This document shows, piece after piece, positions 14,110-46,300 of a stretch of DNA of 64,000 nucleotides. A program made the position numbers and the translations under genes. The number at the start of each line of letters is the position of its first letter. Positions within the stretch are counted from its first letter, which is position 1. The notes beneath the pieces are model-generated. The model was not told the origin of the DNA, ran no database searches, and saw only the letters and a program-made list of their open reading frames with translations. The DNA is from Antedon mediterranea (taxonomy: Eukaryota; Echinodermata; Crinoidea; Comatulida; Antedonidae). Location: assembly GCF_964355755.1 (NCBI RefSeq), contig NC_092676.1, positions 14,058,288-14,122,287 on the forward strand, in the 5' to 3' direction.

Positions 14110-14819
14110 ATTAAAACTGCTATAAAGAAAGCAAAAAATATTCCTCGATTTCAGACACTGACGTACAAACCACGTCAACCAAATTTGACCAGAGTGCCAT
14201 TGGTCACAACCCATCACCCTAGGTTGCCTTCATTACGGGCTATTATTGAGAAACATAGTACACAGAACGTCTCAGGACTGTTTTTCCGGAACCATCCATT
14301 ATTGCATTTCGTAGACCTCCCAACCTTCGTGATATATTAGTAAGATCCAAATTTAAGAGTAAAATTAACTCTCATGACAGCCAAAATTTGGGCAGTCACC
14401 TTTGCGGCAAATCTTGCAAAACTTTTTCATTGGTTGACTCTACTGAAAAACATTTTAACAGTAACCAAACTGACCGCATTTTTCGGATAAGACAATCAAT
14501 TAATTGTCTAGCCAAAAACGTCATTTATCTCATATACTGTAATATTTGTGGTAATCAGTACGTCGGGGAAACAAAAAACACTCTCCGTATGAAAATGACA
14601 CAACACAGATCAGCTATCAAAACATTAAAGCTTGATCAACCTGTAGCCGAACATTTTAATTCAGCAGGTCACTCGATTGAAAATTTCAGAGTTATTGCAA
14701 TAGACCACAAGACCAAAACCACTAGGAATTACTACTTAAAACCACAAAACCTTTTGGACTTAACATTAGGAACATACTCCCAGATCGGTAAAATTACTCC
14801 ATTGACTACCCAAATTTAA
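14110..14819 (+). pseudogene. Penelope-like element: RT tail and GIY-YIG endonuclease
   Basis: The open frame 14388-14819 encodes a GIY-YIG endonuclease of the Penelope type: a Cys-containing entry (HLCGKSCKTF), then VIYLIYCNICGNQYVGETKN (the GIY/YIG strands), LRMKMTQHRSAI, and HFNSAGHSIENFRVIAI. Upstream in other frames, 14160-14385 reads as the segment between RT and endonuclease (VPLVTTHHPRLPSLRAIIEK; PPNLRDILVRSKF), broken by at least one frameshift. RT itself is absent. The 3' region that follows (to about 15110) has a close copy at 43020-43240. Confidence 0.85.
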
Positions 14820-15282: not shown

Positions 15283-16080
15283 TAGTCTAGGACAAAAATC
15301 TGAAAAGATGCTTAGAAATCAATTTAGGGGGAGTGGAATGTTAGAGGCTGTCAACATAGCCAGATATCCTAATTAATCCCTTCTGATCACTCTAGGCCCT
15401 GTTGACACTTCATTTTTTGCCTCGTCTTGAAATGGCGGCCATTTTTCAAAATGGCCGCTATTTCAATACGAGGCAAAATCTGAAGTGTCAACAAGGCCTA
15501 ATGGATTCCGTGTCTGAAGTACATGTGTTTAGACACCAAGATTGTGTATCTACCTTATTTAGATCTGATTTTATCCACATTTTATATAAAAATGGCGGCC
15601 ATTTTGAAAAATGGCTGCCATTTTAATACGAGGCAAAAACTAAAGTGTCAACAAGGCCTAATGGATTCCATGTCTGAAGTACATGTGTTTAGACACCAAG
15701 ATTGTGTATCTACCTTATTTAGATCTGATTTTATCCACATTTTATATAAAAATGGCGGCCATTTTGAAAAATGGCTGCCATTTTAATAAAAGGCAAAAAC
15801 TGAAGTGTCAACAAGGCCTAATGGATTCCGTGTCTGAAGTACATGTGTTTAGACACCAAGATTGTGTATCTACCTTATTTAGATCTGATTTTATCCACAT
15901 TTTATACAAAAATGGCGGCCATTTTCAAAAATGGCCGCCATTTCAAGACGAGGCAAAAAATTAAGTGTCAACAGGGCTTAGAGTGATCAGAAGGGTTTAA
16001 TTAGGATATCTGGCTATGTTGACAGCCTCTAACATTCCACTCCCCCTAACTCATTTTTTTCACATTTTTTGCCTAGACTA
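15283..16080. mobile_element. Foldback element with 160-bp internal tandem repeats
   Basis: The ends (15283-15445 and 15920-16080) are reverse complements: TAGTCTAGG at the tip, then AGGGGGAGTGGAATGTTAGAG and the TGATCA-containing stretch. Between them a 160-bp unit is repeated about three times (GTGTCAACAAGGCCTAATGG at about 15486, 15646 and 15806, with a partial at 15966). Each unit junction is an imperfect palindrome built on AATGGCGGCCATTTT. The three ORFs at 15402-15964 are the repeat read in frame, not genes. Confidence 0.9.
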
Positions 16081-16246: not shown

Positions 16247-16399
16247 TTTATTTTACAATGTTGCTTCTCGTGGTTCTTTCAGTTTTGCTATAAGCGATTT
16301 CAGTTGGTCATTGTCGGAGTCTTGTAGTTTATGTACATCACTTGGATTGTCTAGATTCTTTTCCGTGTTTAATATTAAATAGGCTCGGCGAGGTGTCCC
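16247..16399 (-). CDS. Receptor last exon, stop codon and poly(A) signal
   Basis: Phase 0 in. Encodes [17 protein letters not shown] and a charged end ([14 protein letters not shown]), then TAA at 16255-16253. AATAAA (16252-16247) follows the stop without any spacer, so the 3' UTR is very short unless a later signal is used. No DFG motif is present where a kinase fold would have it. Confidence 0.8.
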
Positions 16400-19300
16400 C
16401 TAAAATGATAATAGCGCAATTTTATACAAGAATTTATAGTACATAGTAGGCCTATATGTATAAGCGGCTACAGTAGATAAACATTGATTATTGCAAAAAC
16501 TGTCATGACTCAAGTAATTAAATGGATAACTTTGTTAACATATTTCAGAGTTGCATGTGTTTATACAATTAGCATTATGTATGCAAGATTGCTACCTACC
16601 GCCTGCACTAAAATATAATGTTCGTTGACCAAACCATGCGACAGCCCATTTTTATGTACGAATGATACAGCCTTAGTAAGATCATCCTCAAATGCGTTTA
16701 TATCATCTTCGGTTAGATGTTTTTCGGAACTATTCAGGTATTGAGACAGTAGAAATGGTCTTTTTGAGATAATACTGATCATTGGGAGAACATGGTATCT
16801 GTCTATCTCTCGAAGCACCATTTTTGTAAATCGATCTTGCTTATCTATTTTTTTTTTTAAAAGAGGTAACCTTTTAAAATATTTATTAATTAATTTTAAG
16901 AATTTTAGTTTATCTTTTTAAACTAAATATTTACATAATTTTACTAGGGTTGGACAAACTGAATAAAAAGTGGAGATCAAAAAAAAAAACTAGTGAGAAA
17001 ATTAAAAGATTGAAACGGACCTTTAACGTAATGTCGAAGATTGGGGAAATAATATAGGCCTAATATTTAGAGGCGTTTTGTTAGCAGAATTTAAGAAGTA
17101 GACCACAGGATATTAAAATATTGTAGGCCTATTATATAAAATGGATAAAATGCACGATTACAATTTACCTTCATTAGAATACAATGTAACAATTAAAACA
17201 GTTTAATTATAAAAATGAAATAATTAATTTTAATTTTACTGGAAAATATTAACGAGCATGCAAGTTTATAAAATTAAGTTCATCGGACTTTGTGGTGATG
17301 GCAATGAATGGCCCAGAACATCGGTAGACTCATGCAAATTTCTGGAGACGAGAAGTTGATATTTTAATTTTTATTTATTATTTATTATAGAATTATTGGT
17401 AATAAATAGATAGCAACAGGACATCATCGCCAACCAATTTATATGTATTTACAAAGGTAAATAAGACCTCATTTTTATACATATTATTTAAAATAAATCC
17501 TGTTTATATATTTCACATTATTTGAGCGCTCTCATTAAATAAACTAAATGGATCAATAATCATGATTTAAAAAAATACCATTGTTAGATGTCATTTTTAG
17601 AGATTCCCCTTCATTGATTATTTGTCTGACAGTATTTCCTAATTTCAAAAATAAAATATATATTTGGTTAAATATTGAATTTATTTATATATAATGTATA
17701 TAATGTATAAAATACGTAAATATGGTATTTTACTACAGTAGTGCAAACACGAGCAATGCATAACCGTTATCTCTCTAGCCTTCTCGTGTATTTCAGTATT
17801 TTATTGGTAGGCCTACTCACTTTAGAATCAGTGGCACACACCTTTCGGTGGTGCGTCCATACAAATATAAACAACAACATATAAAAGGTAAATGATGATA
17901 AAACTTACATAATTTACTTACATTGAAACCAAAAAAAACAAAAAAAAAACAAAAAAAATAAAAAAACAAATGTACAGTAGTAATTGTACACTTGAACATC
18001 GTGTACATTTGTACTTTTATACAAAATTACTTACGTGATATTTCGGAACAGGAATTTCTTGATTTTCTATTCCGGAACTTAATGGTAGATAACGTATATA
18101 TGTAAGGATTTAACGAAGAATTTAACGGCAAGACAAAAACAGCAGTCCACGCATACACAGTTCCCGGAATGCTGACAGTACCAGATAGTGCCAGTATGCC
18201 CATTGTGACTATTGGTACCCAGCAGAAGAAGTCTGTAGATATGATTAACGCCATCTTGACTGCAAGTTTCTTTTCAGCCGATACGGCTTTGGTCGTTTTT
18301 GAAGCTACTGTTTTTGCAGATTGTTTAAATTTGAAATAAATCATTGTGTAGCAGAATAGTATAGCTAAGAAGCAAAACAGATTCAGTACAATAAAAATAA
18401 ACACTGAATAGAGCCATCCATCGGGCTTGTCGCTTGTTAGTGGTATTGCTAAGCACACACTTGATCGACCATAGAAGTCCGAGGCAAATGTTGAAGCCAC
18501 TAACGGATATCCAGCCAATGTTAACAGGAATATCCATTGCGAAAGAATGATAACTTTTACCGAAAATGGTCCTAGATGAAATTTACTAAAAGGATATTGT
18601 ATACAGATAAATCGATCCATACTTATTGTTGTGAGTGTCAAGACGGATAACTCACTTGAAACAACCGAAAGAAATCCTGCCAGATGACAAATAAAACTGT
18701 CTTTCCATTCTTTAGCATGTAGCACGTACACATCACGATAATACATGTCGGCACTGGCTATAATTATCATGTACGTCCCGATTAAAAGGTCAGAAATTGC
18801 TAGATTCAATATCAAACTACCCTGGACCTTGTTACGTTCTTTCTGATGGCACCGCCAGGCTATTACAAACACGTTTCCTACTAAAGCCCCGATACCCAGA
18901 AGCCACATAAAAACGCGTAACACATGGTTTCGCATTAAATCGTCACATGATGAAAATTCGTCTTCTTCTGGCTCACATCTGGATATTTCGCCAATAAGAC
19001 AACAGAACAAGAAGTCATCTGATATTCTACAAAATTGATAAAATTGTACAACCATAGTAGTTAAGTGTGCATAATCAAATTACCTTATGCCTTAAAATTT
19101 GTAATATCGTAGTCATATTCATGGACCATCGTAGGTCGCAGTATTGTCTCGTCGTGACTTCTTATTCACTCGTTATTATTCGCGGTGGAAATTCAACATG
19201 ACTCTTCCAAGACGAAGATATTATCAAAGAAATGTAATCATTACATGTAATTTATTATGATTAGGCCACTCAGCCTAGTTAGGACTCGGCTGGACTCAAG

Positions 19301-22300
19301 CTAGGCTTAAGAAAGATGATTCAAGCGAGCTATAGAGAGCAGAACAATTATTTGGGTATTAATGATAAGTGTCGCATACCAGATCCTCAAATAACAAAAA
19401 TATAACTTCACAGATGATCAAACGATTGACATCGGGAAAAATTGTAATAATGCGTAATGACTTCGTAGTACAGTCTTAAAAATTTGTAAAAATTCGTAAC
19501 AATATTGTATCTCCATCGTGCGACCGTCGTAGTTTTTAGTACGAATGAATACGATTTTTGTAAATTCGTGTTCATTCGTAGACAAACTCGTGAATGTGGG
19601 AAAGGGGAATTTACTAAATATAAGTATCTATGTTGAATTTAATATAATTAATTATAATCTTTAACAATTCATTTATTTAGGTCTACTTACAAAGTTTCCA
19701 AACCATCCAGTCCTTGAAATACGTCTTCCCCAAACTTACTTAAGTTTTCATTCTCAGATATGTCCCTATAAGAAGAAGCAATACTTTTACAATACTCTGA
19801 TTGTTACATTGAGAAAAATACCATGATGGCCTATATATCGTGAAACCTTTCACTATATTTTTAGTCGCGTGGAAGCGACTCTATAGTTCACTATGTCGGT
19901 CGGTTGGTCGGTCTGTCTGTCGGTTTGTCTGTCTGTCGGTCCGGTATCACTATGCGTTTTATCGCTTTCTGACCTTATCTTGATATCAGTTTAATCTAGC
20001 TAGGTCAATTTTTCACAGTATATTCCTTATGGCCAGGAATCAATGTGGTTATGTTTTCACGGTGCGCAATAAAAAATTACGTGGTCTACGCACGATTTAA
20101 CGAAATCACGTTTGTAATCATATCTTCACAACCATGAATCACAATTAAATAAAATTTGGTACTCATAAATTTCAGGGCATAAATCATCATAATATGGCAA
20201 TACAATTACGTGCGTAGCGCATGTAACGCATGCGTACGCGCGCTTAAAATTTTCAAAATTTATTTTCGATGAAATAAGAGTACATTTCAGGCAATTTTAA
20301 GCGTTTACAAAATTGCCATGAGTGCGCATTTTTTCGCGCGTTAAATGTTATTGCGCACTCTTTTTGCCCGATTTCTGTTTTCTTGACTTTTCAACTCGAA
20401 ATTACGTTATACGAGCACGTCGAAAGTGACAGGCTACGCACGTGTAAATTAAAAAAATGTAAATGTTTTTAAACATTTCAACATTTTTAAACATGTTCAG
20501 TAATTTCGGTCAGTATAGTTCACTATGTCGGTCTGTCTGTTGGTCTGTCTGTCGGTCTATCGGTCTGTCTGTCGGTCCGGTATCACTATGCATTGTAGCA
20601 CGCGACTTAATGGCTGTTGGCCTTGTTTCTTGTAAAAGTAATTGGAATTCTTGGTAATTATCCGCTAAATAGTAATTGTGTACATCATGGTATATTTTGA
20701 AAGCATTTATCATAGTATAGTAAGACATTTTTAAAACTACATGCATTGGATTACTTATATCTTATAGTATCAGAAAGTGACCTCGGGGGTTAGATCTATA
20801 ATGATAAACCTAATTTTATTTGGAAATATATGTCACAACTTTAAAGTTTTATACCGTATGATGGGGGGGGGGGTGTCATATATAAAGTGTGTGCGGGGGC
20901 GACGCGAGGTGAAAACAAGGAGTAAGCAGTAAGCTGAGTGTGGCGCTACTTGATTGGGTGTGGACAACTGTGTTGGTGTATTGATAAGATGCCAAGCGGA
21001 AAAATAACGGGAAAATGTAATTAACTCCCTAACTTATAGGGTTTTCTTAATTGAGTTGTTCAGGATTGAAGAACAGTTTGACTAATGAAATAACCAAAAA
21101 CACTTGTGAAACCAGAACATTTGTGAGTACAAAACAGCATGTGAAGTGATAGATAGCTAATAAATTATATTTCAATTGAATGGGACTTCACTATTGTAAA
21201 GTATAACGATGATGCAAATACAGTGTGGGGGAATTAGGGTAGAGTGTATTTGGGATAGAAGGGAGTCTGGTGGAGTAATTATTTATCTATTGTTGTATTC
21301 ATTTATTTGTTTATTGTTGTATTTAATTGAAGTTTTGATTATTATGGGATATGTAAGATAATTGAAGGTCATGATAAATTCAATCTCTTGAACTTGTAAT
21401 ATATTTTTATTTATTCGTTTACAGTTATTTATTTACTAGATAGTATTGGATGCTTAAATGGGAAACTTTGTTGGAATGCACGAGTTATAAATGTTTTAAA
21501 CAAAAGAAACATTTTTATTAAAAAACGATAGAATTTTTAATTATTTTTCTGTACGATTAAATTAAATTGGCGAGGTTTTGTGACAAAGTACCTAAGTGAG
21601 AGATATTAAGGCGGAAGTGTTATGAAGTAACCGATCTAATGTTGGTAATTGAAACTTGAATTTGAGCACAATGTCTATTTTTAAATCAAACCACACACTA
21701 TTAACAATAAAGATAGTATAGTAGGATAGTAACGTAGGATAAGTTGCAAAAGGGAAATAATTATGAGGGCGCAATACTAATGAGACAACTGAAAGCAAAG
21801 ATAGTGTAGTAGGAAGATGTTACACTTCCTATTCGTTCAATGCAAATAAAAGCGAGACAACATGGAGCTAAATTACGTCGAGTAGCTAAACTACGTCGAG
21901 TAGGGATACGGAAAGTTATTGTATAGGAAATAGGCTATTATAACAGTAGAATAATATGATTGTAAAATTAAGATTTAATACGAATTAACATATAAAATGT
22001 AATGTTATCTTTATAGAAAGTGCAAATGAATCATATTTATATGTTTTGGAATACAAATTTGTGTTTCAATTACCTGGAATTGTTTAGGTACCTGGAATTT
22101 ATCTACCCGTATTTTATTTCTTTTATTTTAATGTTTTTATTTGCAAATCAATTGAACTTTTTTAAATTATTTACATTTAATTGTTTATCATTGGACATAG
22201 ATAGAAAATTTAATACCTAGCTTTAGAAACACTTCTTCATCAGAGTGAATATTAGGAGCCTAGTGGTAAATAGGCCTACAATTTGGCATGTAATCAATAA

Positions 22301-25300
22301 TCAATCAATCAATCAATATTTATTATAATCAATAATATTATACAAATAGTTGATCTGCATACACTGAATACGGTACAGTAGGCTTGAACATTATAGGAAT
22401 TTAGGACTACGAGTATGTTTTTTTACTGAAAAAAAAACAACAATTATTGTTAATTATCTATTAATTTTAATAATTTAATAATACTGTAACTAATTATTAT
22501 ATTATGCTTTTAACACTCCGAACTTTCGTGCATTCATCGTAATTGTATATGCCCTGATTATGTAACGCCTAACATTATTGATAATATTAATTATAAGCCA
22601 ATGAGTTCATTATTGGTAAGGTTATATCAAGGAAAATATATCCGTGGGGAAGCCTACTTTACCCCCTTTCATTATACTACCATTACAAAAAATGTTCTAT
22701 CTATAGAAGTTTTACAATTCTATGTTAATCTATAGAAACAGATAATTTCTATAGAAATGAATTTACAGATTCTACCCCTAGAGTTTTATAGAAATTGCAG
22801 AAGAATTGTTATCATTTATTCATAAATCATATATTGTTTGTCAACAACAATACTGTATACTGTAAAATTAGCATTATGACTTCAGACTTAACTGGGGTTT
22901 ACCAAGATTAGGTAAGAGTTTTTATGGGTACGGGTTGGTTTGGGTACGGGTTGGTTTGGGTACGAGATGACCAGCATCCATTCATGAATGCGTCTACAGG
23001 CGCGCGTAAGCCTCCTCCTGATCCTAGCTCAGTGTTTACAGTCATGTCATGACAAAACTCACTCCAAATAAATGTATTAACAATTAAAAAGATCCAAAAA
23101 CAGTATGAAAACATCATATTAATTTTTAACTTTGTATAATAAAGACAAAAAAGAAGTTTTTGTTTGTTTTTTGTGGCTTATTTTTACAATTTATTGCCGA
23201 AAACAACATTTTCATTGGGCTTTGCCATTGCGCTCCTCATGTTTCAGATTCGTCTATCCCTACTCGTCGTGAGAGGCGCCCTATCTCGAGCGGTTCTCTA
23301 ATTTTTGAGCGAAGTGTAAATCTTCCTACTACACTATCTTTGCTGAAAGTGACTAGTTGAGGAGTTTGAGTAAAACACATGAAAAGATGTAGTGCTAATA
23401 TGAGACAGATATGGAAGAATGCCGCTGTACCGTGACTCAATACACGTTCCGAAAAGTATCTGAGACAGCTATGGAAATAACCGAGACAGAATTGTTTTCA
23501 TAAGTTTTTGCATTTTGTTTGTCTAGATCAAAATTATGCATATGCCTACTTTATTATATAGATATAGTTACTATTAAACAACTTACAATTCAGTGGTTTG
23601 GTTCAAACTATTGAATGTCCCGGATGCAATTGTCTCCAAACTACTGTTTCTCAATGACCTTAAAATACAAAGCACATGTTCGTGAAAACTATCTTGAAAG
23701 ATTAATGGTTTAATAAAAAGTGTTATATAATAGTAAGAATAGGCCAATATATCACACGAATTGAGAATTTTCTTCGTTACGTGTTTAGAAGAGAATCAAT
23801 ATAACAGGGACTTTACGAAACATGACGGTTACAGGCCCGTAACCAGGGGGGGGGGGGGGGATCGGGGGGATCGTACGATTTCGGTCGTACGATCGCTGAA
23901 CAGCGAGTTCCGCTTGGCCTCCCACTTTTGTTTTGCTGGGCATACTAACACAACACGACGATTGTTCACTACAGGCCTAGTCAAGCCTTAATAAATTTAA
24001 TTAATATATATATATATATATTTTAACTAAAATATAAAAACCTAACACTAAAATTTACAAGATAAGTTCTATTTGATAACTGCTGAACATCGTGGTTCTG
24101 GAGCTAGCGAGCTGTACACAGAGCATAGTTGTTGTTTGGTTGACATAACAGGGTATTCCCCTACACAGGTCTCCGCGTGCGTGTGTGACGTGCCCAGCCA
24201 GCTGCTTGATAGAGAAAGCATGCAGCTCACACGGACGCAAGTGCAAGATGCAATGGTTGAGTGAATTCAGGGATCATCTTAATTCCATGGTTTTTTACCT
24301 AAACACCACATGATGGTGAATATGCCTGTTAAAGTCTCAATGATACGATCCCTAATGTACCATGTTGTTGCTAGGAGGCTTGAAAGGAAGAGGGATCTAG
24401 CCTAATTTCGGTCGGCAAGAGAATGCCGTCCTCTGACAATATAAGGTCGGCAATATTAAGGTCGGCAATTGAAATTTGTGGGCTGGAAATTACACCAACA
24501 ATATAGTTCATAAACAAAAGAGAATAGCCGGAAATGCGATTTGCGGCCATAGGCCTATAGAGAAAAAAAATTCGAGGGTATGGTTCCAGTGGCGGATCTA
24601 GCGGGGGCGTATTTTTTTTTTTAATTAAATAGATTTTAAAAACACGTATCGTTTCGACGGTCATCAATCACCGATGGTTTGCACATTTTCATAGTGAAAA
24701 TAGTACGTCGGAGCACATCGTCAGCTTGATCGCATTCCACCAAGCATGTACGTCGACATCCTTTGTGTACTATCAATCTCTAGCGTTACCAACGATCATT
24801 CACAGTTAAGTGTAAAAGGAGCAAGTTGATAAAAGCCACGTGGTGAGCTTGGTCGCGTTCCACTAAGCAGGCGGCATTCTTTGTGATCGTCACTCCCGTA
24901 TTGTAGAGTAGCGGTACCTCAGACGATCAATAGAGTTGATGAAGCCACATGGTCAGTGCTACTATACTACGCGCCCATTTATTAAGTACAATAAAAACAA
25001 AGGCTAGGACTGTATGCCTATGAAAATTATCCCGTTAGGGCTAAATTTGATTAAAACGTATTACTATTAAAATATTAACAATGCTGCAGCATTTCATGAC
25101 CCTTGTTGTTTTATTTGCTTTCCCGTCGATGATTCTCATAAACACATCGCGATGACATCATGACAAAAGACGTGTTTTGTTTTTTTCAAATCACTAAATA
25201 TAATGTAATCGAGCCGGACCGCTAATTTTTAAACGATCGTTTAAACCAGGTCGTTGAATATGCCGTAATTTTAATTGTCAAAAACATGACCGTCAGTCGA

Positions 25301-34300: not shown

Positions 34301-37300
34301 GAAGAATTTCCATCAATAAGCCTATTAATAATAATATTATAATCAGGTAGGCCGAATAAACAATTCGTCTTCTCTCGATCTTCGAGGAGCCGAATCACCG
34401 GATGTTCAGCGCGTACTAGTTACTAGGTTACTACCGTGAGTATTGACCAATCACAAACGGTGTTTCATCACATTTAGGGTGGACTTATAACAAATGAGGG
34501 CGCTATGTATGCATAGCTTAAATAGTTTAGAAGATTAATTTCTTCAAGCAAATTCCGTGGCCCAGCGGATGAAACGTTGTCTTGCGATGGAGTGACAATT
34601 CCACCCGAGTTCAAGATCGAGTAGATGACTTTTGTTTATTTATCGGCAAACTCGAGTGTTGCACACGAAAATTACACAGTCAATATCATCGTACTCGAGA
34701 ATTTATATGATTAATGACAGGGGACACGATTATTACGCGAAAATTACACAGTCAATATCATCGTTCTCGAGGATATATACGATTTACGATCCTCGCAGCG
34801 GTAGTCATGTGATGCAGTTTCAACCAATCACGTTCGCGTATTTACATAGGCTATGTAATATAACTTGATATTTGAGCCTGAGCAAGATAGTTTGATAGGC
34901 ATATTTTACTTCGATGTAAATAAGATATTACATGTTATACTGTATGTAAAATACTTTTTTGTAAATAAAAATATTTAATGGTGGTTAATTTATTAACTTG
35001 TTAATTTGTTTGTTAGTTATGATGTTATACTATTAATTATTTAGTTATTTATTAACCAAAGTGGAGTGGATTCGTGGCAATTGCAACTTGACTGTAATAT
35101 GCAAATATATAATAATATTTACTTCTTCTTGGATAAAGTTAAACCAAAATAAGCAATAATAAAAATTAAATATTTATTTTGCCATAAAGAAAGCAAAAAC
35201 TAAACATACAGTACTATATGTACAGTAATACCATGGACCTATAGGTCCATGGTAATACATACTGTAGTATTGAGCACCAGTAGCAGAGACGTCTGGACAA
35301 TCGAATATAATCGTTATCAGCTGTCTGGGTACCCAAGGCTAGTGCTAGAAAATGGCGAAAATTCGTGTATTCATTCGCCGTCAGCGAAATGAATCCGACA
35401 CTTTTCTCATCAGAAGCAAATCAACAAATCCTTTTATCAGTTTGTTTTGATATATAATCTGGATAATATATATTAAAATGGCCTTGGTTCAAGCATGTTT
35501 AACAGGTAAAATCAGATTTTTTCCTACCTAGGCCCCTTAGCACTGCGGTACCCTACGCCGTGTGGGGGAACCGATCTCGGCAGTATTTCTTAAGTAGCCT
35601 ATCTTTCGTAAAATCCTTAGTTGAATTTTATTAATATAAATTTAATTGTATGAATATGCTATTTAAATGTTATTGAAATTTTTTTTTGCTGCATTTTGTA
35701 ATTCCGCACTACTTGCTTTATCGCGATTCCAAGATGGCGGCAATTCAAATTTTGATTTGGTAATAATTCGCGAGGTCAACCACTTTGCTGCCCGACTGTA
35801 TACCAATGTAAACCACATACAGTATGTTCACATATTATATATGTCAAAGGTTATAAATTGTATTTCCAGTCATTTTATGTGAAAATGTTTCATTACTACA
35901 AATATAAATGTCTCTATTCTGAAAAAAATGACACCAAAATCGATTGAAAATGATCAGTAGTTACTGAGATATACAGATAAGAGGTCAAAGGTCAAACTGG
36001 GAGAAACGTCATTTCCGGTCATTTTTTGACGAAACTTTTCATTAGAGCAAATAGAAATATGTGGTTTGTGAACAATTTAACACCAGAATCAAGTCTCTAC
36101 TGTTTATAGTTGCCAAGATATGAAGACTTTTTGTTTTTATGGTGGCCATTTTGAAATCAAGATGGCCGCCATACCGGACGTTGGACACTTGGCACCCCCC
36201 GATATTTTTAATCTATATACATCAAAGAAACTTTGTGGCAAGTTTCATGCTTTGGTAATAAAGTGCACAACTTGGCTATTTTTATGGCACTAACTGCTCT
36301 ACTATTATCTGACAGCGAATTATAGTAATATCATGGGACTCATAAATACCAGAATGCTTTGGGATTTGTCGTTAGACTCTTTTCCCAGCCGTTTTTGGAT
36401 TGGTGGTACCAATAAATTATAGTGGAGTTTCCATTTTAACAAAAATGTCAAAGTGTAGTACTATAAAGCTGCTTGATTTCATCTAATGAATGAGTCATCT
36501 CGTGTGACGTAGCGGGCTAGAGCAGCAGCGTGAAAATCAACACCAGCTAATGTAGAAACAGTCAACAGCTTATGTAGTAACGAAAATTGTCTCCCAGCTT
36601 ATGTAGTTACTATCGCCAGCTAATGTAGAAAATGTTATATATTTTACAAAAATGTCTAAATCATTGGAGGTGTGGTCGTTAAGAGAGGTGGTCGCTTATG
36701 AGAAGCGGTCCCTTATGAGAGGAGGTGATCCCATACAAGAGGTGGTCGATTAAGAGAAGCGGTCCCTTAACAGAGATGGTAGCTACGATGCGTGGTCGTT
36801 TTAGAAAGTTGGTTGCTTACGAGAGGTGGAAAGACTGATAGGTAAGTAAAGATCGATGCATTTAACACCAAATTGCATCGTGGTTATTCACTGTTATTTA
36901 TAAAACACTTGATATACTCACAAATATGTTAACCTCGTCATACCGACAAATGTGTTTTGTGGTAACTCTTTCAAGAACATATCTTCTAAGAATCTGTCAA
37001 AATATTAACCTAATTTAAAATATCACAAATGCTATTGAATCGATACAGCGATATGGTTTATATATATTATAACAAACCAAGATCTATCTGTTCATTTATT
37101 TGGCGACTATTCCAAAAACCTTGTGGATATTTCATGTAACAGCCTTGTGAAATCCTCGTTAGCCACCAGAGGTCGCAGCCAGAGTTCATAATATCCAAAA
37201 CCACAACAAATATGTACAAGGGTATGTTTTTTTCATACACCATCCGTCTTTGGAACAAACTACCACAAGACGCTATGGAGTCAACATCACTAGAGGGATT

Positions 37301-40300
37301 CAAAATTTATATCTCTTATGTTGACATAAATTTGAAATTGTTGTTTAAAAAAAATTGTTTTACTCTTAATTTCATTATGGACTTGAACTATTCTTTAAAG
37401 CTCATAAATTATATATTTTAAGAGTCAAACAAATTATTTTTAGGCTGTGGGAATTCATATTGTCTAATTTGCCTAAATAGTTCAATATTTGATTTATATA
37501 CTCACAGATATGTAATGCTATGCAAACCCACAAATGTACCACTTTCGATTGTGTGTATTGGATTACCACTAATGTCTCTGTTAAAGAAATATTTAAAACA
37601 TTAGGCCTATACCATACTCACTATATGTTGGTTTTACAACCTTTATAACACACATTACTTTAAATGTTGACCCAAGTTTCCTATTTTCTTTCTTTTTAAG
37701 GAAAACAAGACCCCGTCTCATTCTTTAACAAAAAAGAAAAACAATTTGATCCACGTCATCTCTTTTGATCTTCTATTATTGATACAATCGCGTTGTAGAC
37801 CTATTTCTAATAAAATTATAGGCCTATTTTAGATTACAGAAAAAAATTACTTGCAAATTTGTAGAACGTCAAAAGTGATCGTTTTTACATTTAACCGCGT
37901 GATGTTTGCATTAGTGAATTACGAATTTACAGATTTGCACATTTTTTTTGCAAAACTGTGGTTGTTTGCACATTTGAGGGCAAAATGTTTGCTCAAATGT
38001 GGTTGTTTGCACAAATCTTTTTGCACATTTCACGGCTCAAAGGGCGTAATAATTTTATCTGTATTTATCATGCAAACAGAACACTACGTATTTGGGTCTA
38101 TTGTACTTACATGTTGATAAGTTGATTGAGACCAATGAACGACCCATTACGTAAATGTGTAATTCTATTTCCAGACAGACGTCTTTAGATAAAATATACA
38201 TACATTTTAAATAATAATGAAAATAATATAATAATAATACTACTAATGCAAAATTAAACATGGTTTTGCTATATTTGAAATTATATTTTAATATAGCCCT
38301 ATACTGGTGCATGTTGTATTATCTCAAGTTAAATTTATAACACATTGTATAAATAAACACATTACATAATAGTACATTGAAACGTGCCTTGTAAGTATGA
38401 TAATGTAGTCACTGAATAGAAGAAATATTTTGTGCATATCTTAAATTAAACATGTTAATTTAAATTACAAATTATACTTACAGTGTACGAAGATTATTTA
38501 ATTGAGAGAACATTCCTGGGTTTATAATTTCCAAACCTACATTTGATAAATCACTTTGGAAAAAAAAGAATGAAATAAATACAAAGTTTTCCAGAAACTA
38601 CACGGCTGTTTATTGTCTCTAGATATAGTACGCAAACTGGTGATTATGCACACATTTAGATTATTTAACAAACTAAAATTTACTAACAGGTGTAATAGTA
38701 ATTTGAACTTATTAATATCTGTCAATATGACATCATTGAGTGTTGCTCCATTGATGTGGTCTGTGTTTCTACGTTTCCTTTCATTTTGTTCTATATCACT
38801 AAGATTCCTAAAAGATTTAATTAGATTAATAATTAATGAAAACTACTATTTTCGTAATGTCAATATTAGCAAAATAACTTCCATGCATTTTTCTCTCAGC
38901 AACCTCTACACATACACATTTTCAAAATCTCGTTTAATACAAAATGTTGGGGTTTAATTACGAAAAAATATCAACAAGTCAATTAAACTCTGAATGTCAA
39001 ACTTACAAAGCCCTTGACTTCTCTGGTAGTTTAGAAGCTATATTGGAATTCCAGTATGCTCCTGCACACGAAACGGAATATCCAACACAGTTGCACTCAT
39101 CGGGACAGTCAACATCTGTATAAACAAACATATCAATATTATAAGGCATGCTTAGGCCTATACAAGGCTATAACGAACGACGATAGATGTATAAAGAATT
39201 AGAAAAGTTTAATACAAGAACTGTATAGAATAACCATTTATATGCCCACGGTCTGTGATGAAAACAACATTTTCAAACATTTTATTAAATGACGCCATGA
39301 TTAATAAGAATAATGGTTACGATACAACGATGTTGTTCTTACTGATCATGATGTAATTTGTTCGACTTTTCATCAAAGACAGTATCAATGGTTATTATTT
39401 AGTTGTAGGATGAAAACATTTGTAAATTGTTTTTTCTTTAGGGAGTATGTGAATTTATCTATTCATTGTCGTCGATATAAATGTCGTTGATATAAATGAG
39501 CCTTTAAGGTACTCATGGATATGGGTTTGGAAAAAATAAGTAATGATAAAGGCCTATTTGTCTAAAAATAAGTTATTCAAAGAGTACATGTTCTATTCGG
39601 TGTCATTCACGATATCTTTTTTTTTTATTCACTAACAATAACAATGATTGTGGGCCCTAATTAAAAAACTTTTAAACAAGCTTTCAATATTACTAGATAC
39701 GGCTCGACTTAATCCTATTAAACTCGGATGTATAATAAATAGCTCATTAACAATTAAATAAAGTATATTTACCACAATATAACTCATCGTCTCCTTGTGG
39801 ACAGTGGTTAATGTTGTCGCACACATGATCTTGAGAAATACAAACACTACCTGAGCATCTGTAACTTCCTGGACATGTAAACAAATCTAAGAAATAAGAT
39901 TTAACATTATATTAAGCTCTTTGATTTTGACAATCAGAATGATCGTTCATAGTTAATTATGGTTGGCAACAACAAATACTGTATGCCACCTTCTATTATT
40001 ATTAAAATTAAGCCTATAGTTTAATTTAAACAATTTAAGTGACATGTGAGGGTAATAAGTAGCATTCAAGTTACCACAGTAATCTTCATCGCTTCCATCT
40101 GGACAGTCTTTTTTACCATTACATCGTAGCAGCTGAGGTATGCAATATGATTCTGGACATTTGAATGCCATTTCTGAACATTCAAAATAATCTGTATACG
40201 TTACAAAAAAAATGTTGAAACAAATTATATAATATTAAAAGAGATTGATTTTCATTGTGAGATGAGCATTTTTTTCTAGAGATATTCGACATGAACATTT

Positions 40301-43300
40301 TAATATGAAACCCCGATATCCGAGTTGTTGAGTAAGCTGGCAGGTCTGTATAACTGCGCGCTATTGTGTCTCAACTAGGCCTATGGTATTTATTTGAATA
40401 AACGCACAACGTCCCACACTTCCCCCCAATAAAACAATTGGAATAATGATCACTATTATGGATTTTCACTGTAAAGCATTAATTATTATTACGTGTTTAT
40501 TGATATGTGGCATTGGCGGAGGCTTGCGCTCTCTGAGTGCTCTTTTAGTTTTTGTAGTTCAGTGGTCATGAATACAATACATTAATTCCCTGTCAATACA
40601 TAGCACATAGCCCACAGCATGTATTTTACTTTTTTATGCACACAAATAAAATCTTAAAATGATCAGTCACAGAATATGAAATAGATGTTTAAAATAGTAG
40701 TGTTTGTAGGCCTAACTGGGATTACAGCAGGGAGTTACAATTTCCTGAAAGCTGCAATGTGCAAGTGATTGCTGCGAGCAGAGAATAACGTACATATTGA
40801 TATGTACTAGACGTTGCAAAGTGTAAGCAGATTTATAGCATTATGTAGTGCACTGTCGGAAAGTTCCCTTATGTTATATGGAACAACATACTAAAAGTCC
40901 CTATATTAGATCATATCTTGGTAACCGATGGGTGTAAATAAACAGTTGTGGTGTCAAAATACTCAGAAGACCCATATTTAAAGAAATGACCCGAAATTTG
41001 GATTGTCTCAATATCTTTGACTGACCGTTGGAACAAAAATCGTCACAAATTATTCAGGAAGATTTTTTGTAGACAATGAACTTTCGAATCGGACAATTCA
41101 AATTGCTGTTGCTGAATATAAATAGCACCCATTGTTTTTATTCTAAATAAGGTAACGTAACACCTATTTCATTAAAAAGAAGCCAAATGGCAAAAATTGA
41201 TTTTTCTTCATACTTTGGTAATTAATCACACTTTAGGCAGGGAGTTGTTATCTTTAGGTAAATATAACAAAACTTAAATATATTTTTTTTAAATAATGGT
41301 TGCCATGGTAACAGGTGTGTGTGTGTCCTTTGTAGTATCCGATTAGATCATAGTTTAAGAATTTAGATTTTCACTTCGATAAAGTACATGGTAACTGAGT
41401 TGTTCCATCCAACCAAATATATTTATAGAAAATACAACTTCAAAAAAAATGTCACCTAGAAGGGACACAGACCAAGACTATCAGGGTTTTTTTTTTTTTT
41501 TTTATAGCCTTGCACACTAGACTAATGGAAGTGGTCTATTCTGTTGGCTAGAAGAAAGATTAACAAAATCAGGAGACACCTCAACATCTTGTTATTAAGT
41601 TCTTGACATGGCCACAAGTTTGAGCAATGAAGTAGTGAAGGGAAAAACAGGTTTTAAGCAACAAAATACAGTACTGTACATGGGATTGGAGAGGTCTACA
41701 CTACGTACATTGTTTGGTATCTTTATGTATGCCTACCTATATCCGGTGAACACAAAAATTTTTATTTTGATATAAGTTTATTGTAATTAGATAATTAATG
41801 ACGTCACATAAAGACATAATGTTATGTATATTTAAAGATGTATTGTCCCCCAAAAACATGAAAAATGAAGATTAATTACATCAGACTTTGTAGGTTTAAT
41901 CAAGTTAATCAATTGCGTAGAAAAAAACGAAGACGAAATTATGTTTTCACTAAAATGACAAAATAAATGGTTAAATTCAACCAAAAATCCATTGGCTGCC
42001 AGCCAATTTGACTTGTTTGCTTTAAATTACAGTTTTTTTTTCAGGTAAATAATTTTGTTTAGATCCAAGTGTTGGCTATTATATGATATTAAAATGGCAT
42101 AATCAACAAAAAAATATTTTTTTAAGGGGGACAATATATCTTTAAATAATGAACATTTCCGTATCTAAAACCTAAAATATTATTTTAAAGATATGACTAA
42201 TATATCTAAAATTCTCATATATATATATATATATATATAATATATGATAGGCCTATACACTGATTCATTTAAGCATCGTTATGCACATGTTTATAGCTAT
42301 GAATATGTACGTACACAACAAAACACTGAGTTCTAGATTATTAAACAATTTTGGGTAGGGTTTGATAAAAAATAGCCATAAGTACAGTTTTTCTTGTTTT
42401 AATATTTGATTTAATTTGAATTCAGTTCAAATTTTATGCCATTACTTTACAAATAACATATCCTGAAATCAGAAAAAATACCAACTTTTGTAACAACATC
42501 AATATAACAAAAATGTATTCCCCAAAATTTTTTGCCTCTTATCCATTCACACGCAAATCAAGTGTTACCATAGACGTTGTGAAGCTCCAAACCTTGACCA
42601 AAATTTGATTTTTTACCACAAGTAAAAACACCCCTATTGACAATAAATGGTACGGTCCATTTCCATCCCCGCGATCAACAATTTTTTGCTTTCAGTTTGT
42701 TTATAAGTCTTTCATCATCTTGTATTAAAAATTAAATTTCAACAATCCGAATTATTGAAATAAACGTTTACCCTATTTGACAGTGAAATAATAGGAAAAA
42801 TTACAAGAAAATGCTGTAATTTTTTAAGTGGCCGTTACTATGGCAACAAGATACAGATACCAACAATAATTTTATCTGTGCATGTTTCAACCAAACATCT
42901 TTTATTGTGCAAATTTTAAAGAAAATCTATTTTTTAACTTGGGCCACCTAAAGGTCGATATTTATAGACAACTGCCCTTAGAAAAGTAACAACATATATT
43001 TATATATAATATACAGGTATATCTTATTCAGACTCCACCCTGTCTCCTTTTGTTGTATTTCTTTTATTCTTGTCCACCCAGGCAGCACTTGCCAGCTTTA
43101 TACTCTGACGTTATCCAAATTCCTTCACTTGCACTGATGAAGGGCTAGTGTTGCCCGAAAGCTCTGCTAACTTTTCTGTCTGTTTTACTTTATCGTTTTG
43201 ATTTAGCTTTTCGCTTTTTTTTATAGATCCAGCCAATGATATCCACAGAATTATCATTTTTTCAGTAATTTGCATTTGGATGTATATAGTATATATATAA

Positions 43301-46300
43301 ACACAACAGGCAAAGAACATTAATTCTAAACCGCCCGGTGATATACTGAAATTTAATTAATTAATTTGAAACGATAAAGATGAGGAAATCTGTGAGAATG
43401 AGAAAAAGTCGCCCCAACCGAGACTCGAACTCGGACCGCCTGCTTGATATGCAGATGTCCTAACCATTAGACCACTGGGGCTTTCATGGTATTGTTCGAA
43501 CTCGATTGGATAACGACTCTTTAACATTCTCGGCGTGGTACGGCGGAACAGCACTAGTCCTCAGTTGTACGCACGCGCAACAGAGATCAAATTGATACGC
43601 CCTCATCTTTCAGTATTTTTATTCACGAGACGGGATCTCCGAAGAGATACTTTTATATATATAAACACAATAGGCAAAGAACATTAATTCTAAACCGCCC
43701 GGTGATATACTGAAATTTAATTAATTAATTTGAAACGATAAAGATGAGGAAATCTGTGAGAATGAGAAAAAGTCGCCCCAACCGAGACTCGAACTCGGAC
43801 CGCCTGCTTGATATTGATACCACTCCTAGTAATAAAATAGGCATTAAAGTGTTATGAAATACTTTTAGTAAGAATACAAGATTGATGGAAATACCATACC
43901 ACAGTATCTGAGATGGGTTGAATCTCTACAACCTTTCTGAAAACCATCAACAGTCAACTCGTATATACATCTTGTATCATTTTGCATACACGCCCCGTTA
44001 TTACACTGTATATCATCATCTTGACATTTAAATAGATGGTTGTGGTATTCTAAAAAAATGAAGTTTGTGTATGAGTAGGATGTGAATACGTTATTCATGT
44101 TTCAGTTTAAATTCGATGTTAAGTATATACATTTCGATAGATTATAGATACATTTGCTGTACACACACTTCAAGAAAATAGAAGAGCTTTTTTTGAAAAG
44201 TTTTAACTTAAAAGTAGTGATTTATTAAATATGTCATGACTATCGAGAATAAGGAACTAATTTGATGTTTGCGTAAAAATTAAACATTATTTTTTAATCA
44301 TCTTATAATAAATTTTGCAAACAAAGCTATAAATCAGTATAGATTATTAATTAAAATGTATTAGATGTATTATACCACAGTTTTGTTCATCTTCCCAATA
44401 TTGACCACTGCAGCTTTTGTAGCCATCGCAAACGGCACTCATTGGTTGACAAGTCCCATCGTAGCACTGAAAACTGTTGTTACATATATCTTAAAACATA
44501 ACACAGAAGTACTATTTATGTAATTTATATGACATTTTTTCGTCTTTTTTTTAACTTGTACGTTAAATCGTCGTAATAAATGATGTCTATCATTTGAAAC
44601 TCAAAGAGCCATCACTTGATTAGCTGATGCTCATACTTAGCATATCGTTCACAGTTTGGGCGTAGTAGGCCTAACACTTTTAAATGAGTATCCAATTACT
44701 ACTTGTATGCACAATGCTGTGCACAAACTGGATTTCTACTTTACTGATCGTTAGTTTCACCAGTATTATAGTGCCAGAAATAAGGTCGATCTTTCGTGAG
44801 ATCTTTTGACTATACCAGCCTACATGGCTGTTGGACTATATCTTCGTTATAACAATTTACAATCTGCTGAACCACTTTGAAAATCAAGAAAGAATAAATA
44901 ATAATAATTTGACTAATTAAATTACATTTTTTTGGCTATTATTATTATTTTTTAGTTTCTTTTCGTTAGTTTGTACGTCATGAGCCTTCCCCTTTGTATG
45001 CATTTTACCGAATATAATAATAATTGTATTTTAAAGAAATATATTGTAATCAATTCTTACCGCAACTGAATTCATCAGAACTGTCAGTACAGTCTTCAAA
45101 GAGGTTACACCTGTACGATTCTGGAACACATTCTCCATTATGGCATCGGAACTCGCCGCCTTCACATTCCGAATGTACTTAATAAAATATTTATTGAAAT
45201 TATTCACATAATACACTTTTAATAGTCTAGTTATTATTAATAGGTCATGCATAATACATAATAGGCAAATGTAATTCTGATATATAATGACGTTTTGAAT
45301 AAAAATAGTATTTGTTTCTTCAAGATATTCCTTGCAATCGCCATTGTAATCATGTGTGGGAAATGTCGTTTTCGTGTCCCAAGGTTGGCCAACATGACTT
45401 CATGTATGATACAGTCCTCCAGAACAGGTGTAATATCGACATTGGCTGTACAAAAACAATGGACATAACCTCTACTCTACCAAAAGATGTAGTGGGTTCT
45501 TTACACACGTGCGAGATGTGTCCCTGAACATCCGTTTTAACGAGAATGAACGAGAACGCTTTCACCGAACTGTAAAGAGAGCTAGCCGTTGATTGTATGG
45601 TTAAACGCGTCTAATGCGTCATAAGTATGTACGTTTAAGCTTACATAAAATAATAATCTTTGATAATTCTTACCGCATCCTTCCTCGTCTGAACCATCTA
45701 TACAATCAACGATGAAATCACACACGAGGCTGACCGAAATATTTTCCAAGCTACTTTTACATTTGAAATATTTGAAAATGTCAACACTTTGTGAATCATT
45801 GAAACCACAATAGAGTTCATCACTGTCGTCAATACAGTCTGAATGTTCATCGCAGACATATGTCTGTAAGATGCATTCACCATTGTCGCACCTAAAATGA
45901 TTTCTTCCACAGGAATTGTCATAACCTAAAAATGATTATACGATTTGTTAGATTAGATTTAGATTTTTTTGTGAGATTATAATTTTTATTTCATTTTCAC
46001 GAAATAAGGCCATTTATAATGTGGGACTTGAAGTGGTTAATTTTACTTACTTCATAATTTTATTTATTCAGATTGCGTGTAAATTTTACATTATAAAAAC
46101 ACACAAATAGACACAAAAAGAAAAATAATCAGACAGTAATATAGTTGCGTGAGTGAGATTTTAATTTGGAATCGTTAGGACTATTAGAATTTATTGCAAC
46201 TGATGGCCAATTTTTAGCAACATCATTTAATCGTGGAAAGCAAATGGTAGTACAAACAGAATTACTGTAGGCCTATTTTTAAAAGTATATTGGATGTGCC

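Follow-up and report, generated by a model that had tools for sequence, protein, structure and literature searches.

The stretch of genome analysed here, 64,000 nucleotides of contig NC_092676.1 of the crinoid Antedon mediterranea (positions 14,058,288 to 14,122,287; hereafter the window), carries on its minus strand a gene for a GRL101-like receptor of the LGR type (leucine-rich repeat-containing G protein-coupled receptor), the tail of which is best read as a pseudokinase without the N-terminal lobe (N-lobe) and with a truncated C-terminal lobe (C-lobe). A protein search with the Antedon tail returned a single protein, the 549-residue NCBI model P0001 (G-protein coupled receptor GRL101-like), with 100% identity. 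The interpretation that we favour, with moderate confidence, is an LGR-pseudokinase of the GRL101/relaxin-receptor group, probably built in the order LDLa repeats, leucine-rich repeats (LRR) and seven-transmembrane domain (7TM), with a cytoplasmic tail formed by a truncated kinase domain that is catalytically dead and serves as a tethered docking or allosteric module.

Because the Antedon tail alone is too diverged, the argument for kinase ancestry is carried by the profile of the tail family and by the relatives of the receptor. These relatives were the best 120 of 204 proteins. The tail after the 7TM was cut in 113 of the 120, and 45 tails had at least 70 residues; short tails may represent incomplete models. 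By eye, aided by alignment, 28 of the 45 were judged kinase-like (18 echinoderm-type, from Antedon, Amphiura, Holothuria, urchins and P0013, together with five molluscan and five cnidarian tails) and 17 were not. The truncated urchin model P0037 was left out of all groups, leaving 27 tail-bearing proteins. Searched against the PDB sequences, a profile of seven echinoderm tails gave 502 matches at E ≤ 1, with MK3 as the best (1.9e-6); the best 60 of the 502 were all protein kinases, aligned as far as the catalytic loop. A profile of five molluscan tails gave 253 matches (best STK33, 4.2e-5), the best 60 of which were again all protein kinases. In a Pfam scan of 20 of the 27 proteins kept, a kinase family was found at E ≤ 1 in 11. 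Three corals lay above the curated PF07714 cut-off (P0065, 2.8e-9; P0075, 3.3e-8; P0070, 6.8e-7), the top echinoderm values lay below cut-off (P0014, 2.1e-4, PF00069; P0002, 3.5e-4, PF07714; P0024, 4.4e-4, PF00069), and the remaining nine proteins, including all five molluscs, showed no kinase family at this threshold. With the Porites tail region as query, a search gave nine proteins including the query itself, among them proteins of Porites and Acropora, each with precomputed 7TM and kinase families.

The Antedon tail by itself showed no tail family at E ≤ 10 in a Pfam scan of the direct-splice form. Searched against the PDB sequences with phmmer, it gave 81 matches at E ≤ 10 (best CK2, 0.0013), and the best 60 of the 81 comprised 59 CK2 entries and one FliE. 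The kinase homology, which a first-pass annotation of the window had inferred by eye, is supported by the family profile; a match to protein kinases that reaches the catalytic loop was obtained with this profile and not with the single Antedon sequence. Structure prediction of the tail, proposed in the same annotation, gave a divided answer. The AlphaFold model has the kinase elements in the expected order, but fold-search support was mixed, with no kinase among the Foldseek matches listed for the 81-residue model of the tail exon. Profile-to-profile comparisons with hhalign linked the tails of the three groups. Seven echinoderm tails against six cnidarian tails gave 95.6% with a score of 62 (40 column shuffles reached at most 16), the echinoderm against the mollusc tails 93.7% with a score of 50 (shuffles at most 17), and the mollusc against the cnidarian tails 93.5% with a score of 53 (shuffles at most 19.6). 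Ten further echinoderm tails gave 75.6% against the cnidarians and 97.9% against the seven echinoderm tails. Six other GRL101-like tails, four from arthropods and two from molluscs, did not exceed 0.2% in this comparison. Chance resemblance of the tails is ruled out by the shuffles, by reversal and by these six tails. At the level of sequence, the comparisons establish a kinase ancestry for the tail family.

The Antedon tail is a kinase-derived domain without catalytic residues, the definition of a pseudokinase. As first annotated, the catalytic loop has lost the catalytic aspartate, lysine and asparagine of the HRD loop, VAIK is missing together with the whole N-lobe, and other residues stand at the place of DFG. 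In the alignment of 34 tails, no row shows a complete HRD Asp/Lys/Asn set and none shows DFG. An active protein kinase, with VAIK lysine, HRD aspartate, lysine and asparagine, and DFG, is ruled out, and the tail is predicted to be non-catalytic. A nearly complete pseudokinase stands behind the same kind of 7TM in the anthozoan relatives, and only cnidarian relatives have a near-complete kinase-derived domain; all 12 anthozoan rows keep the beta3 lysine and the helix-C glutamate, and none of the 12 has the HRD aspartate. Eight columns are invariant among the seven echinoderm rows, and features of the conserved core are an HG motif, RA in the beta8-like strand and an Asp ahead of the last helix. 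In urchins the HRD histidine is also lost.

The first-pass annotation had suggested a search for the same tail in echinoderm GRL101-like proteins, and it was found in Amphiura, Holothuria and urchins. We built an Antedon-free profile from six tails (four of Amphiura and two near-identical ones of Holothuria) and searched it against 115 tails of at least 20 residues. The Antedon tail scored 76.7 bits (E 1.3e-23), Nematostella P0064 31.9 bits and urchin P0025 30.9 bits. Ten coral-type rows scored 9.0 to 13.9 bits, Patella 13.0, Haliotis 7.7 (E 0.018), Ruditapes P0068 2.9 (E 0.54), and urchins P0073 and P0051 7.3 and 2.2, respectively; Exaiptasia P0086 and two Mercenaria tails were not among the matches listed, which extend down to E near 1. 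The Amphiura protein P0012, whose tail is linker only, still scored 24.9 bits, and therefore the profile does not consist purely of kinase-like sequence. Judged by primary structure, crinoid, brittle star and sea cucumber share a conserved tail, which anthozoans have in a longer form and some molluscs in a short form.

The gene, read along the minus strand from the far end of the window, comprises the following features.

39771 to 45929, minus strand: LDL-receptor class A (LDLa) repeats in several exons, the probable N-terminal ectodomain (tblastn of P0002, P0025, P0017 and P0036).
36921 to 39107, minus strand: an LRR N-cap-like stretch and weakly matching leucine-rich repeats (tblastn).
36921 to 36980, minus strand: first exon of the NCBI model P0001, LRR part (exact P0001 match).
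23586 to 23657, minus strand: LRR exon (exact P0001 match).
19690 to 19764, minus strand: LRR exon (exact P0001 match).
18035 to 19026, minus strand: 7TM exon of the rhodopsin class, LGR type, with a phase 1 end and the donor GTAAGT (PF00001, 1.2e-31).
17579 to 17638, minus strand: 60-nt linker exon, phase 1 on both sides (NCBI model P0001).
16600 to 16844, minus strand: tail exon 1, kinase-like from helix C to the catalytic loop, with AG acceptor and GT donor (profile matches, alignment and model).
16253 to 16399, minus strand: tail exon 2, which we read as a beta8-like strand (RRAYLIL) and a helix at the place of helix F, with AG acceptor and TAA stop.

The four joined exons (7TM, 60-nt and two tail exons) correspond exactly to P0001 residues 70-549. 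Exons 16844-16600 and 16399-16253 join in phase, and the final exon ends as annotated, with AATAAA directly behind its TAA. The first-pass annotation had the 7TM exon spliced directly and in phase to the tail exon. The in-phase join stands, but a direct splice is ruled out as NCBI's model, since P0001 inserts the 60-nt exon 17638-17579. The direct join is also in phase because this exon has phase-1 introns on either side, and the splice from 18035 to 16844 could be an alternative isoform. At the linker, P0001 residues 391-418 have AlphaFold confidence values (pLDDT) under 50, a disordered stretch ahead of the tail. At the other end, the LDLa stretches at 45.9-39.8 kb lie outside P0001 and are arranged as in Amphiura P0002 and urchin P0025; from order and strand, they are probably part of the receptor gene. 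The LRR N-cap-like match at 39107-39006 had E 0.001, and the repeats at 38552, 38178 and 37576 matched at only E 0.23-1.5. The full gene probably has the layout LDLa-LRR-7TM-tail over about 30 kb, with P0001 beginning further downstream.

The assignment to LGR-type receptors holds on several lines. The 7TM is of the rhodopsin class and nearest to the glycoprotein-hormone and relaxin receptors, P0001 contains the LRR family PF13855, and the ectodomain combines leucine-rich repeats with LDLa repeats that probably belong to the gene. Structural comparisons of the whole receptor model (Foldseek, VIA-align), which mainly test the LRR-7TM part, matched TSHR, LHCGR, FSHR, RXFP1 and LGR4, with TSHR, FSHR and RXFP1 as the best; RXFP1 aligned over 275 residues with a root-mean-square deviation of 2.7 and 35% identity. 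GRL101, arthropod LGR5 and RXFP-type LGRs share the 7TM group, the LRR exons and the upstream LDLa exons with the Antedon gene. They differ in the tail, which is not kinase-like in the four arthropod rows covered, in Ruditapes P0018 or in Bradybaena P0019.

Just downstream of the gene, at 15303-16070, an inverted-repeat element with 161-nt arms (91% complementary) encloses three direct repeats at 160-bp spacing and, by eye, looks like a non-autonomous DNA transposon. The translation of the plus-strand open reading frame 14259-14819 resembles, again by eye, the end of a Penelope-like retroelement that carries the GIY-YIG endonuclease. On the minus strand, 19880-20610, which lies upstream of the 7TM exon, holds two copies of a stretch with GTGATACCGGACCGACAGACAGAC, probably a dispersed repeat.

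The distribution of kinase-like tails in corals, molluscs and echinoderms suggests one old fusion followed by several losses. In a 7TM tree of 46 rows (29 tail-bearing and 17 picked tail-less rows) the tail-bearing rows were clustered, with 5 label changes against 13.9 in shuffles; a second tree of 44 rows, leaving out P0072 (long branch) and P0040 (9-residue tail), gave 4 against 12.6, and none of 500 shuffles was as low as the observed changes. A single clade of tail-bearing rows was rejected in the 7TM tree (AU p 7.7e-7). Repeated fusion of the 7TM and a kinase-fold tail may instead account for the distribution. Beyond shared receptor type and position, a closer kinship among the tails themselves than with kinases generally is not supported; Nematostella P0064 scored 31.9 bits and the best ordinary kinase 31.0, with different profiles (Antedon-free and seven-sequence, respectively) and different databases. 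The tail-less rows may in part be truncated models, the tail being in separate exons. Two Amphiura proteins, P0012 and P0005, have a common linker, after which P0005 continues into a pseudokinase-like tail and P0012, judging from the proteins, apparently into the intron at an Antedon-like place; this split hints at alternative tails or wrong models. In Porites evermanni P0121, a receptor with a kinase-like tail continues into PF01082, PF03712 and PF03351, probably a fused gene model.

Under the LGR-pseudokinase reading, an ancestral receptor would have carried a whole kinase-fold tail, still almost complete in anthozoans, and the echinoderm line would have retained the stretch between helix C and helix F, inclusive, losing the N-lobe that binds ATP together with most of the C-lobe. 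The tail would not phosphorylate; tethered beneath the 7TM bundle, it would serve as a docking or allosteric module and might bind a true kinase, a G protein, an arrestin or a second receptor. Ligand-driven movement of the 7TM or receptor pairing could alter access to it, and the in-phase linker exon may set its distance from the membrane. Such roles have parallels among the regulatory pseudokinases JAK JH2, HER3, KSR, VRK3 and STK40, of which JAK JH2, KSR and HER3 control partners. These have a kinase fold without the full catalytic set and a regulatory or docking role, as proposed for the Antedon tail; they are complete domains and are not attached to a G protein-coupled receptor (GPCR), whereas in the Antedon tail the N-lobe and the greater part of the C-lobe are missing.

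Other readings draw on several observations. Compared with the anthozoan tails, those of molluscs and echinoderms are shorter and have diverged further, urchins are without the HRD histidine, and many relatives, some perhaps incomplete models, are tail-less, as might be seen if the tail were the remnant of an ancestral kinase-fold domain in decay, tolerated because the tails of class A receptors can vary freely, and with no function as a folded module. We hold such a vestige to be unlikely, since crinoid, brittle star and sea cucumber all conserve the shortened piece (76.7 bits; eight invariant columns), which would be unexpected under neutral decay over such a span of time. The place of the tail after the 7TM, behind a disordered linker, and the commonness of tail-less paralogues would also fit a membrane-proximal regulatory tail of real kinase ancestry whose role is now only trafficking, desensitisation or arrestin/GRK handling; this appears improbable, as the conserved core is not obviously needed for such a role. 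That a helical C-terminal domain resembles kinase helix E and the HRD strand by accident is very improbable, because against the missing Pfam and Foldseek kinase matches of the Antedon piece alone stand the echinoderm and mollusc profiles, each matching kinases on its own, the gradation among related receptors that culminates in coral kinase matches above the cut-off, and the shuffles.

The first-pass annotation had proposed that a pseudokinase-derived tail on an LGR-type receptor would be a new way of linking a GPCR to a kinase-fold scaffold. Fusions of a GPCR with a kinase have been described in oomycetes, amoebozoans, choanoflagellates and sponges (PMC12716839); for LGRs none was found in the literature search. 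According to the part of that paper covered here, sponges are the only metazoan lineage with GPCR-tyrosine kinases, and its authors knew of no functionally characterised GPCR-kinase fusion. The choanoflagellate GPCR-TKL/K and GPCR-TK, the sponge GPCR-TK and the oomycete and amoebozoan GPCR-kinases have a 7TM followed by a C-terminal kinase-fold domain, as here (PMC12716839). By this published description rather than by sequence, the Antedon receptor is set apart from GPCR-TK and GPCR-TKL/K by its LGR-type 7TM and a domain without catalytic residues; the words LGR and pseudokinase are absent from the main text. The excerpted PMC8286064 treats GRL101 in ambulacrarians, proposes it as a second IGF receptor, IGF also driving a receptor tyrosine kinase, and describes in that excerpt no kinase-like tail. 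The word kinase is absent from the main text of PMC9545775. A literature search by title and abstract start, with most subscription journals and preprints outside its coverage, found, among the papers listed, no report of kinase-like LGR tails and no publication on GRL101 together with a pseudokinase.

With relatives in brittle stars, sea cucumbers, molluscs and corals, the Antedon receptor looks like a member of an old, apparently undescribed family rather than a one-gene quirk. More tentatively, LGR-pseudokinases may predate the cnidarian-bilaterian split and covalently join a hormone-type GPCR to a kinase-fold effector or scaffold; the anthozoan form could bind nucleotide through its Lys-Glu pair, and the half kinase of echinoderms may still signal. 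Given the proposal that GRL101 is a second IGF receptor, next to the receptor tyrosine kinase that IGF also drives (PMC8286064), the tail could be a meeting point of GPCR and kinase pathways. If true, kinase-fold fusion would extend to cnidarians and bilaterians, including the experimentally tractable Nematostella and Strongylocentrotus, and the family would offer a natural test of the kinase fold as a GPCR scaffold and of how little of that fold suffices.
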